A DNA stretch of 64,000 nucleotides. Origin: Candidatus Chromulinivorax destructor. Its GTDB lineage: Bacteria; Babelota; Babeliae; Babelales; Chromulinivoraceae. This document shows positions 3,387-63,795 of the stretch, piece by piece. The stretch lies in contig NZ_CP025544.1 of NCBI RefSeq assembly GCF_003366055.1, forward strand, positions 186,001-250,000. The letters run 5' to 3'. Made by a program: the position numbers and the translations under genes. Each line of letters opens with the position of its first letter. The stretch's first letter is position 1. The notes below the pieces were generated by a model. It searched no databases and had not been told where the DNA came from. It saw nothing but the letters and a program-made list of their open reading frames with translations.

Positions 3387-3440
3387 TAAAGCAGACAAAG
3401 GCCTACAACATAATTATGCTGTAGGCCTTTGTCTGCTTTA
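3387..3440. repeat. Near-perfect 54-base palindrome
   Basis: Two 27-base arms with a single mismatch and almost no loop, centred on TAATTA; the outer 20 bases of each arm pair perfectly. It lies between convergent genes and abuts the broken right end of the element at 3104-3386. It could act as a terminator for the plus-strand ankyrin gene, but there is no strong T-run, so the role is uncertain. Confidence 0.7.
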
Positions 3441-11139: not shown

Positions 11140-11222
11140 AGAATATGAAAATCTTTTTAAAATTGTTTTCGGATTGAAATAATTATACCACATACCAATG
11201 ATTAGACAAGAATTGGTAATGA

Positions 11223-11263
11223 AAAGGGTAGATTGCACTCCAGCACAATCTACCCTTTTCATT
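11223..11263. terminator. Hairpin terminator
   Basis: Perfect 15-base arms GAAAAGGGTAGATTG / CAATCTACCCTTTTC with a short loop, ending in T-rich sequence on either strand. It probably terminates minus-strand transcription coming from the gene at 11533-13077 through the element at 11321-11535. Confidence 0.65.
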
Positions 11264-11320
11264 ATTTTTTGATTAACAAATATTCTTGCATGCCTTGTCA
11301 ATAGCAAGCTTTCAACAAAC

Positions 11321-47292: not shown

Positions 47293-47344
47293 AATTTAAA
47301 AGACCATTTCTAAGCATATTTGTTTAAAAATGGTCTTTTAAATT
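47293..47344. terminator. Bidirectional terminator between convergent genes
   Basis: Perfect 17-base arms AATTTAAAAGACCATTT / AAATGGTCTTTTAAATT with an 18-base loop. Confidence 0.75.
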
Positions 47345-58226: not shown

Positions 58227-58928
58227 TTACATTTTTATAAATTGAGAAATCAAAGGACAGCTATCGATAAGACTTATTCCATTGCAATGCTCAATAATTT
58301 GCCCATTTTTCATGTAATAGACACGATCAAATACTTTGCCAATAAAGCTCATATCCTGGCTTGATAGACCAATCGTCAAGCCTTGAGCTGCTAATTTTTT
58401 GAGTATGTTTACCAAAATATCAGTGTTAACCGGATCAAGTGAGGCAGTCGGTTCATCAAGTAGCAACACACGTGGTTGCAAACACAATGCTCGCGCAATG
58501 GCAATTCGCTGTTTTTGTCCGCCAGAAAGTTGCGATGGATACTGATTAACACTCGCTATCATCTCTAAATCGGTTAAAACTTTTTTTACTCGAGCTGCAG
58601 CTTGTTCGTACGCAACACCATGCACGAGCAATGGGTCAATACAATTTTGAAAAACAGAGAGATGTTGGAATAGATTAAAATCTTGAAATACATAACCAAT
58701 TTCTTCTGAGCGTTGTACCGGCGATAAACTTGCCAACTGATGTTTATTGACAATAATTGAACCTTGTGTAACTGGAATAAGACCAATTAAAGATTTTAAT
58801 AATGTTGTTTTTCCTGCGCCGCTTTGCCCAATAAAAGCAGTAATATGACCTGCTAATAAAAGACACGAAACTGAATCTAATATAACTTTATCATGAATTG
58901 TAATGGTCAATGTATTAATAGTTACCAC
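58227..58928 (-). CDS. Amino-acid ABC transporter ATP-binding protein
   Basis: 233 residues. Walker A GQSGAGKTTL (about 33), Q-loop YVFQDFNLFQ, signature LSGGQKQRIAIARAL (about 134) and Walker B VLLLDEPTASLD (about 157) put it in the polar-amino-acid (GlnQ/HisP-like) class. It starts at a GTG (58926-58928) with AAAGGA just upstream; this overlaps the end of the permease gene by 14 bases, so translation is coupled. Last gene of the importer operon. Confidence 0.93.
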   Translation of the reverse strand: MVTINTLTITIHDKVILDSVSCLLLAGHITAFIGQSGAGKTTLLKSLIGLIPVTQGSIIVNKHQLASLSPVQRSEEIGYVFQDFNLFQHLSVFQNCIDPLLVHGVAYEQAAARVKKVLTDLEMIASVNQYPSQLSGGQKQRIAIARALCLQPRVLLLDEPTASLDPVNTDILVNILKKLAAQGLTIGLSSQDMSFIGKVFDRVYYMKNGQIIEHCNGISLIDSCPLISQFIKM

Positions 58929-59568
58929 GTTGTCCTTTCGCTTCTGTCATAATAATAATCGATTGTAGTACCGCTGAAAACACCAGGTAAATGCATGCAA
59001 TCATTAAATAGACTGGAATTGGATTTAATTCACGAGAGATAATATTCATTCCTGTTCGTGTAAGCTCAGTAATACCAATTGAAGCAAGCAATGATGTACT
59101 TTTTAATAACTGTTCAAACTCTCCAAGTAGCGTTGGTAAAATATTTTTAAAAGTCTGAGGCAAAATAATGCGAAACAATGTTGCTTTCATGGGATAGCCC
59201 AAAACAAAACAGGCATCCCACTGACCACGAGGAATACTATTAATTCCTGAGCGAACAATTTCAGTCACGTACCCACTGGAACAAAAAGCTAATGCGCCTA
59301 CTGCTGCTATAAAACCTGGAATATTAATTCCAAAAGCTGCAGGAAACACAAAATATGCGATTAATATTTGCACATACGCAGGAATTCCTTTTGCTATAAA
59401 CGTATAAACTCGAACAGCTGTGCTAAATGAATCTGATGCAAGATGGCGACAACTCAAAATGCCAAGCGTTGTGCCAATGACAAAACTACATAGTCCTGCA
59501 ACAAGCCATGCTGCAAGTGTCATCAAAGTTCCTTGCACGATAAGTGGTGCGTATGATAGTAAGTTCAT
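58915..59568 (-). CDS. Amino-acid ABC transporter permease
   Basis: 217 residues, five or so spans. The HisM/GlnP-type motif is seen at SGINSIPRGQWDACFVLGYPMKATLFRIILPQTFKNILP (about 112-150), the ATPase-contact EAA loop. Its ATG overlaps the TGA of the substrate-binding protein gene (ATGA at 59565-59568), a sign of tight coupling. Only one permease gene, so a homodimer is expected. Confidence 0.92.
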   Translation of the reverse strand: MNLLSYAPLIVQGTLMTLAAWLVAGLCSFVIGTTLGILSCRHLASDSFSTAVRVYTFIAKGIPAYVQILIAYFVFPAAFGINIPGFIAAVGALAFCSSGYVTEIVRSGINSIPRGQWDACFVLGYPMKATLFRIILPQTFKNILPTLLGEFEQLLKSTSLLASIGITELTRTGMNIISRELNPIPVYLMIACIYLVFSAVLQSIIIMTEAKGQRGNY

Positions 59569-60341
59569 GATGGTACATCCCATTTTTTTTCAAGTTGTTC
59601 AATGATTCCTGCTGTTTGTAATGCAGTTACTGCATCTTGAATTTCTTGAATGCATGATGTATTATTCTTTTTGACCACAAGACCAATCCCTTGCGGCTTG
59701 TCTTCTTCCCGTAAAGGAACGTTTAAAATTTGAATTTCTGCATATTTATTTTTAAATTTTTTTGCAATTGCTGGTTCAACCAATGCTGCTGCTGCTTTAT
59801 TGTATTGAATGTTGAGCAGGGCATCATCAACTTTTTCAGTTGATAGCTTGGTAATAGTTGGGTAATTATCCAAAATTGCATCTTGTGCTGATGTTGGCTC
59901 GACACAAATTGTTTTGCCACTCATATCATCAAGCGTTGTAATACCTGCTGGAATTTCTTTCCAAAATATTAAAGGATAAGCATCAGTCACTGCTCCTTGG
60001 TAATGAATCATTGCTACTTTTTCAAGTCGTTCATGTGTAATAGACAACCCCCATGCAATAATATCAATTTTGCCTTGCTCAAGCGCCATAAACAGTGAGG
60101 TCATGCTACCAAGATCTTTGAGTACAAGTTTTTTGCCAAGCTGATCTGCAAGAGCATGAGCAACGTCGATATCAAAACCTTCATACTGCCCTGCTTGATT
60201 AACACTGACAAAAGGAGCATACCCGCAAGCTATCCCAACAATAAGATCGTCGTTATTGAATGATCTTTGCTGTGGTACATTAATATACAAAGCATAAGCT
60301 AGTATACAGGCTATCATGACAACTATATTTTTAATTTTCAT
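59565..60341 (-). CDS. Amino-acid ABC transporter substrate-binding protein
   Basis: 258 residues, solute-binding family 3. N-terminal hydrophobic signal or anchor (residues 5-18), then the typical opening LIVGIACGYAPFVSVN...YEGFDIDVAHALADQLGKK and DIIAWGLSITHERLEKV, later GKTICVEPTSAQDAIL. The family binds polar, basic or aromatic amino acids; specificity cannot be read. No lipobox, so it may be periplasmic or anchored by its signal helix. The start at 60341 follows the TrpR-like gene by 28 bases; the longer frame would overlap that gene. Confidence 0.92.
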   Translation of the reverse strand: MKIKNIVVMIACILAYALYINVPQQRSFNNDDLIVGIACGYAPFVSVNQAGQYEGFDIDVAHALADQLGKKLVLKDLGSMTSLFMALEQGKIDIIAWGLSITHERLEKVAMIHYQGAVTDAYPLIFWKEIPAGITTLDDMSGKTICVEPTSAQDAILDNYPTITKLSTEKVDDALLNIQYNKAAAALVEPAIAKKFKNKYAEIQILNVPLREEDKPQGIGLVVKKNNTSCIQEIQDAVTALQTAGIIEQLEKKWDVPS

Positions 60342-60369
60342 ACGATATATTTTCTTTATATTTTGCAGA

Positions 60370-60693
60370 CTATAATTTTTCTGATTGAGCACGCATACGC
60401 TCTAAAACTAACTCATACCCACCGTACGGCTCATTATGTAAGAATCGCGCAACTCTTCCAATTGTTGCAAGACTTGCTCCAATTTTACTGTTAATATCAC
60501 GATACGAAAGTTCTGTTGTGCTTAACAATTTACAAACACGCCACCGCTCAGAAAGTGCTTTAATCTCTTGCGGAGTGCACAAATCTTTTAAAAATCGATG
60601 CATCTCTTCTCTATTTTGTAACAATAAAAGTGCATCACACAAATCTGCTATTGCATGATCTTTTTGCAATTCATGAACGACATCAATCTTCAT
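60370..60693 (-). CDS. TrpR-like transcription regulator (YerC/YecD family)
   Basis: 107 residues, the YerC/YecD-type TrpR homologue: FLKDLCTPQEIKALSERWRVCKLL (residues 35-58) then the helix-turn-helix LSYRDINSKIGASLATIGRVARFL (about 62-85) and EPYGGYELVL. TrpR itself is a tryptophan-responsive repressor; whether YerC proteins bind tryptophan is not established to my knowledge. Here the promoter contains a trp-operator-like site, and an amino-acid ABC importer follows in the same operon, so control of amino-acid uptake, with autoregulation, is the likely job. AGGTAGCT precedes the ATG. Confidence 0.88.
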   Translation of the reverse strand: MKIDVVHELQKDHAIADLCDALLLLQNREEMHRFLKDLCTPQEIKALSERWRVCKLLSTTELSYRDINSKIGASLATIGRVARFLHNEPYGGYELVLERMRAQSEKL

Positions 60694-60702
60694 AGCTACC
60701 TA

Positions 60703-60774
60703 AAAATTATTGACGGTTAAAGATTTACTGTACTACCATGATAGCACAGCAGTTCTTTAACCGTCAATAATTTT
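60703..60774 (-). terminator. Long hairpin: terminator of 60780 gene and frame of the regulator promoter
   Basis: Perfect 20-base arms (60703-60722 and 60755-60774) enclosing 32 bases. On the minus strand the second arm ends in a T-run, 6 bases after the stop of the gene at 60780, so it can terminate that gene. The same sequence contains the promoter and operator of the TrpR-like gene. Confidence 0.7.
60728..60767 (-). promoter_or_regulatory. Promoter with overlapping trp-operator-like site
   Basis: On the minus strand: -35 TTGACG (60762-60767), 18-base spacer, -10 TATCAT (60738-60743). The -10 lies inside CTGTGCTA-N6-TAGTACAG (60728-60749), an inverted repeat with one mismatched pair. The half-sites and 6-base spacing match the E. 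coli trp operator pattern GTACTA-N6-TAGTAC at 11 of 12 half-site positions. A repressor bound here would block transcription of the regulator and importer genes. Confidence 0.65.
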
Positions 60775-60779
60775 AATAT

Positions 60780-61427
60780 TTATAAACTCTCAACCGTTTT
60801 ATATAAAAAATATCTGTAGAATATAAAAATTCCTACAGATAGATAAATTGCAGAATATATACAGTCAATTTTAATCAAATACACCACCAATGAAAATAAA
60901 AACACTTCTAATATTATTTTCGATAGATAACTTATAAAATATTCTCCTTTAAAAGACATATCAAATATATTCATCAGATCTTGTTCTAATTCATCTAATT
61001 TTTTCAATAAACGACTAATATTTTTTTCAATTTCAATTCGCAGTACCTGTGATTCTTTTATTTTTTCATCTTCATTTTTAATTGATAAATAAACAAATTG
61101 CTCTTTTAATATACTTTCACAATAACTTTTAATACTGTTATATTTATCTGCTATATTTAATTGTTTAATATCAATAAACATTTTTCTATAGGTCTCAACA
61201 ATTTCTTCTTCATGCTCCATCAAATTATATGATTGTTTATTCAAAATAGAATTAAAAGCAATGCGTAAAGTAATCAACCTATCTAAAGCACCGTCAGCAA
61301 CACTTACAGCATTTTGCAATACTACTTGATCTATGAAATTGAAAAAACCCCAAATCGTAACCACTTCAGACATAATTTCAATAAATGGTGGGATGTGTTT
61401 ACTCAGTTCAAAAAATTTCAAAATCAT
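60780..61427 (-). CDS. Membrane protein with helical domain, function unknown
   Basis: 215 residues. No N-terminal signal peptide; residues 1-160 are helical with Glu/Lys/Ile-rich stretches (EEEIVETYRKMF..., RIEIEKNISRLLKKLDELEQDL), possibly coiled coil, and two adjacent membrane helices lie at about 168-205 (IILEVFLFSLVVYLIKI, IYSAIYLSVGIFIFYRYF). This is a tail-anchored hairpin topology. No family recognised; AT-richer than its neighbours. It ends at the long hairpin 60703-60774. Confidence 0.55.
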   Translation of the reverse strand: MILKFFELSKHIPPFIEIMSEVVTIWGFFNFIDQVVLQNAVSVADGALDRLITLRIAFNSILNKQSYNLMEHEEEIVETYRKMFIDIKQLNIADKYNSIKSYCESILKEQFVYLSIKNEDEKIKESQVLRIEIEKNISRLLKKLDELEQDLMNIFDMSFKGEYFISYLSKIILEVFLFSLVVYLIKIDCIYSAIYLSVGIFIFYRYFLYKTVESL

Positions 61428-63661: not shown

Positions 63662-63757
63662 TGTGTTAGCCTTTTTATAATAGTCAGAAATTCATACAAA
63701 CAGAATATCAGATCGCAGGTTTATCACAAATGCTGACAATATTTTTATCTATAAAAA

Positions 63758-63795
63758 AGTGAAGGTCAGTAATAAATTATTACTGACCTTCACTT
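63758..63795 (-). terminator. Terminator of the gene running off the window end
   Basis: Perfect arms AAGTGAAGGTCAGTAATA / TATTACTGACCTTCACTT with a minimal loop; T-run on the minus strand (TTTTTTATAG), 33 bases after the stop at 63828. Confidence 0.75.

Follow-up and report, generated by a model that had tools for sequence, protein, structure and literature searches.

The yerC-importer operon and its operator

The minus strand of the window (the whole 64-kb stretch of DNA analyzed here) carries an operon of four genes, in a Babeliales (Dependentiae) genome assembled as a single contig of 1.17 Mb. The first gene, yerC/hisR (60370..60693), encodes a TrpR-family regulator of 107 aa (TIGR02531 yecD_yerC, Pfam PF01371). 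After a gap of 28 nt, it is followed by the gene for a substrate-binding protein (SBP) of the SBP_bac_3 type (59565..60341; PF00497, alignment A1, AlphaFold model with a pLDDT of 85), which starts with the ATG at 60341, a GTG at 60392 being also in frame. The permease, of the polar amino acid type (HEQRo_perm_3TM; 58915..59568), matches PF00528 and TIGR01726 (65.5 bits, cut-off 42.2), and its ATG at 59568 lies in an ATGA overlap with the SBP gene. The ABC ATPase (58227..58928; PF00005) has a GTG start at 58928 and overlaps the permease gene by 14 nt. One operon holds the PAAT-type importer set (SBP_bac_3, HEQRo permease, and ATPase), and all the elements of this anatomy described in an earlier, sequence-only reading of the locus (YerC-type gene first, 28-base gap, ATGA overlap, and 14-base overlap) were confirmed.

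Upstream of yerC, inspection of the promoter revealed a -35 hexamer, TTGACG (60762..60767, minus strand), placed 18 nt from a -10 hexamer, TATCAT (60738..60743, minus strand), which is extended by a TG one base upstream. The -10 hexamer is contained in the palindrome CTGTGCTATCATGGTAGTACAG (60728-60749, minus strand; TGTGCTA-N6-TAGTACA), and the 20-bp core of this palindrome, TGTGCTATCATGGTAGTACA (60729..60748, minus strand), was taken as the operator on the basis of its matrix score, a genome scan, and its recurrence upstream of other yerC genes. Its half-sites agree with GTACTA-N6-TAGTAC at 11 of 12 bases. The TrpR-like palindrome over the -10 and the TTGACG-18-TATCAT promoter previously reported both stand. 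The TrpR pattern by itself is not significant, since 1.54 chance matches are expected in the window (with up to two mismatches), and the significance of the site comes from its placement and conservation rather than from the bare motif. When scored with a matrix built without it, the window site reached 27.5 bits, versus 10.7 bits for the best unrelated place in the 64 kb.

The sequences upstream of yerC homologues, drawn both from the window's order and from other phyla, were searched for the site. The same operator core (score of at least 11/14) was present before yerC in 25 of the 33 other loci, spread over several phyla, which is the conservation in relatives that the sequence-only reading had proposed to look for. 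These sites commonly lie over a TATNAT-like -10, about 18 nt from a TTGACA. The search pattern was fixed after the window site was known, and the weight rests on Markov shuffles of the same regions rather than on the pattern: most of the 25 sites had a P value of <0.01 and all had a P value of ≤0.06. The yerC site is the sole strong copy in the whole 1.17-Mb genome, where hits with three mismatches were about as few as those of a reversed-pattern control. This single strong copy suggests that the regulon is most likely limited to the yerC-importer operon.

A long palindrome around the operator

The operator lies at the center of an inverted repeat of 72 nt (60703..60774), a feature absent from the sequence-only reading, with 36-nt arms that are 86% complementary and a strong predicted RNA fold (z = -11.4). 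One outer arm holds the -35 hexamer and the other its mirror image, and the repeat includes a mirrored weak promoter on the plus strand (TTGACG-18-TACCAT). Conservation is confined to the 20-bp core and excludes the outer arms: in a relative of the same genus (G001, L031), the core has diverged and such arms are missing. The arms could possibly extend the operator, combine a terminator of the upstream gene with the promoter, or have arisen by repeated template-switch repair of quasi-palindromes. Elsewhere, a distant relative (L038, 1397-1466) has its operator inside a more perfect palindrome with 31-bp arms of unrelated sequence, and a Rickettsiaceae site (L042) is likewise extended. The window contains other long inverted repeats, most of them intergenic (3387-3440, 63757-63795, 11217-11264, and 47293-47344).

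The palindrome might chiefly serve the upstream gene (60780-61427) as an RNA terminator or insulator, its likeness to an operator being secondary. It starts 6 nt past the stop of that gene, folds into a strong hairpin with a short U run after it, and has intergenic counterparts in the window. However, the 20-bp core and its position over the -10 are kept at loci without a long palindrome, the terminator scan did not flag the 72-nt repeat, and the comparable L038 palindrome sits about 230 nt away from its upstream gene, which makes a primarily terminating role unlikely. Terminator and operator roles could both apply.

Identity of the regulator

The window protein passed the cut-off of the yecD_yerC family (TIGR02531; 76.5 bits versus 42.2) and missed that of the TrpR equivalog (TIGR01321; 37.4 bits versus 67.25). 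Among the positions that we take to be the tryptophan contacts of TrpR, in its presumed numbering, Gly85, Asn87, and Ser88 are changed to Val, Arg, and Phe (positions 85, 87, and 88), while those contact positions that are also present in HisR structures are retained. V81 and R83 are nearly invariant in the YerC alignment. The YerC branch, which the sequence-only reading considered little known, does have a role in the literature: from comparative genomics, Ashniev et al. (2022) proposed a histidine-repressor function (HisR) for the YerC orthologues, and the HisR of R. gnavus required L-histidine for DNA binding in vitro (PMC9413887). The proteobacterial HisR motif, TGTAnTArnnnnyTnTTACA, resembles TrpR sites, and paralogues of the HisR type (HisR2) have other targets, namely, tyrosine genes (PMC9413887).

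The neighborhoods of the homologues point in the same direction. A related yerC heads hisG-hisD in seven loci (L023, L024, L028, L032, L035, L044, and L046; checked with Pfam in three of them and by sequence and synteny in the remainder), and in alphaproteobacteria the homologues lie ahead of hisG and hisD. The genes behind yerC in Rickettsiales, Paracaedibacter, Francisellaceae, and others are ABC_sub_bind/BPD_transp_2/ATPase genes in the HisXYZ* layout (Pfam on a sample, the others read from sequence and synteny). Most of the yerC loci with his genes or HisXYZ*-like neighbors carry the same kind of operator site. The YerC sequence is too short for its tree to place the Dependentiae branch or to settle transfer between phyla.

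The window operon shares with the published HisR regulons the regulator family, a 20-bp TrpR-like palindrome, and a site before hisR itself (PMC9413887). Operons joining hisR to a transporter are known from Wohlfahrtiimonas (hisR-hisXYZ*) and Acholeplasma, but the published transporters are HisXYZ* or YuiF, whereas here the importer is of the SBP_bac_3/HEQRo-permease type, and Dependentiae lie outside the phyla covered in that survey (PMC9413887). The gammaproteobacterial TrpR regulon (trp, mtr, and trpR) has in common with the locus the fold, the GTACTA half-site, and autoregulation over the -10; unlike it, the window operon has a regulator that misses the family cut-off and has lost the tryptophan pocket, with histidine genes next to its homologues. 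The absence of trp genes was dropped as evidence for tryptophan: trpA was indeed not found in the window's order, but this does not discriminate, because hisD was not found there either.

Histidine leader peptides and the importer clade

Within the window's order, 11 yerC genes were found, and behind each of them lies an SBP/importer of this type. Two of these operons, in both of which yerC is open, are decaying, assembly error being possible: in G093 (L038, 1799-2243), an internal deletion fuses the beginning of the SBP gene with the end of the ATPase gene, and in G007 (L041, 5352-6041), the SBP frame has two stops. A profile search for the SBP family in 104 genomes also found close orthologues that lack yerC (G091, G051, G044, and G058, with G058 truncated at the edge of its contig), plus more distant members. 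A second SBP_bac_3 of the window genome (G000:C1:719085-719846; L084) belongs to a separate clade and has neither a histidine leader nor a HisR site.

Short open reading frames (ORFs) ending in runs of histidine codons just before the stop were found upstream of 10 of the 18 readable yerC-less importers, all from the broader clade of the window importer; two of the three readable close orthologues are among the 10. Their products end in, e.g., ...LGHHHSHHISH*, ...YHHHLHHYSH*, ...NAHHHHHHHSN*, and ...SGHHPHHHCH*, and they have Shine-Dalgarno-like matches of 4 to 6 of 6, good in most. The same scan, for ORFs of up to 90 codons in all classes, found no such leader in the 10 yerC-headed operons (Fisher test; P = 0.004) nor in 47 other importers (11 paralogous SBPs and 36 further importer upstream regions; P = 2e-7), whose SBPs are more divergent than those of the yerC-less group; shuffled sequences gave 0.01 leaders on average. 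The region before the window's yerC has no histidine leader. None of the leader carriers has a TrpR-family gene above the cut-off. Behind the leader, a hairpin with a T run is evident in two loci (G069 and G085) and, judged by eye, in G044; it is less distinct in the other seven of the ten. Control of the importer by attenuation is likely in the relatives with such leaders. The leaders resemble known His-leader attenuators (Rfam RF00514 and the Firmicutes types) in the short ORF ending in histidine codons; unlike these, they precede an importer rather than biosynthetic genes, gave no match in the Rfam His_leader search, and are lacking at the window locus. In G091, a hairpin of about 25 pairs lies directly before the SBP start, 3' of the leader (L061, ~1400-1490). 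In the remaining 8 of the 18, both a histidine leader and HisR are lacking; some of these importers are more distant and may have other substrates.

Since the neighbors of the yerC family and the leaders of the yerC-less orthologues both point to histidine, we consider it very probable that the locus is a one-operon HisR regulon for histidine scavenging, in which we infer the DNA binding, the effector, and the transported ligand. YerC (HisR) would be a dimeric helix-turn-helix repressor, active with L-histidine bound, and would then bind the 20-bp palindrome, covering the extended -10 and the start of the only evident promoter of the operon and repressing its own gene and the SBP, permease, and ATPase genes behind it. 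When host-derived histidine is low, the repressor would be released and the importer made. The self-controlled scavenging operon of a host-dependent bacterium envisaged in the sequence-only reading is thus kept as regards amino acid scavenging and the conserved operator and given up as regards tryptophan or aromatic amino acids.

The ligand could not be read from fold or sequence, because the nearest solved binding protein is chlamydial ArtJ (arginine; ~28% identity), ahead of HisJ (23%), both at low identity; Foldseek with the AlphaFold model found ArtJ, LAO, and HisJ alike and picked out no single ligand. The importer shares the transporter family and fold of the HisJ/LAO/ArtJ polar amino acid systems and differs from them in identity (~23 to 28%), in its side-chain pocket, and in having one permease gene in the operon. 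Most likely it carries histidine, as its regulation, rather than its pocket, indicates. Alternatively, YerC might sense histidine while the importer takes up a broader range or another cationic or polar amino acid, e.g., arginine, histidine being one of several substrates. The closest structures do bind arginine, and two more distant relatives (G059 and G066b) have, by eye, arginine-rich leader ORFs. Yet the residue that we take to be D11 of LAO/HisJ, an acidic residue holding cationic side chains, is Ala in the window SBP, and the Arg-leader proteins fall outside the clade that unites the His-leader and HisR proteins, so that this wider specificity appears quite improbable. Least probable of all is the proposal of the sequence-only reading, in which the regulator is a TrpR homologue responding to tryptophan and the importer takes up tryptophan or another aromatic amino acid. 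It draws support from the TrpR-like operator (11/12) and from the absence of trpA from the order. Against it stand the same motif type published for proteobacterial HisR, the missed TIGR01321 cut-off, the substituted pocket, the his genes next to the homologues, and leaders before the importer's relatives that code for histidine, not tryptophan.

In the SBP tree, all the proteins controlled by HisR or by histidine leaders form one clade (support of 100/98), in which the two are intermixed: G091 (leader) is nested in the HisR group, and G066 (HisR) falls within the leader group, adjoining G069, with weak support. This interspersion suggests that HisR and histidine leaders probably replaced each other more than once or that one of them was lost repeatedly. 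Under either history, histidine is the common signal.

HisR, the way it acts, and operons that join it to a transporter are already known. Set against the literature searched, what looks new is that Dependentiae use HisR, that the regulator is coupled with an SBP_bac_3 importer, and that histidine-coded leaders apparently take its place; the main texts of the Babela and Chromulinavorax papers do not mention histidine. A phylum without histidine biosynthesis (hisD being absent from the order) has apparently kept classical histidine sensing for scavenging. These results correct a plausible but wrong tryptophan annotation and make histidine the likely substrate of an importer family in which sequence on its own would point to arginine. 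The range of HisR now takes in Dependentiae and a transporter type unlisted for it. The results also present repressor and likely attenuator as interchangeable controls within one importer clade, and leader peptides as a route to transporter substrate specificity in uncultured auxotrophic bacteria. There is about an even chance that the pattern is wider, i.e., that in this auxotrophic, host-dependent phylum the importers, not biosynthetic operons, are under classical amino acid sensing, with one clade repeatedly switching between HisR and a histidine leader and with arginine and tyrosine leaders hinting at a general substrate code.

By eye, arginine-rich short ORFs (SSSRRRARRI* in L077 of G059 and SIRRRA* in L079 of G066) precede distant members of the SBP family, which suggests arginine leaders. 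Tyrosine-rich short ORFs were found before ABC_sub_bind genes of Dependentiae in L104 (FYHFFFYFYYRYYHYYG) and L114 and also in L109, L112, L113, and L100, suggesting that they are candidate tyrosine leader peptides.
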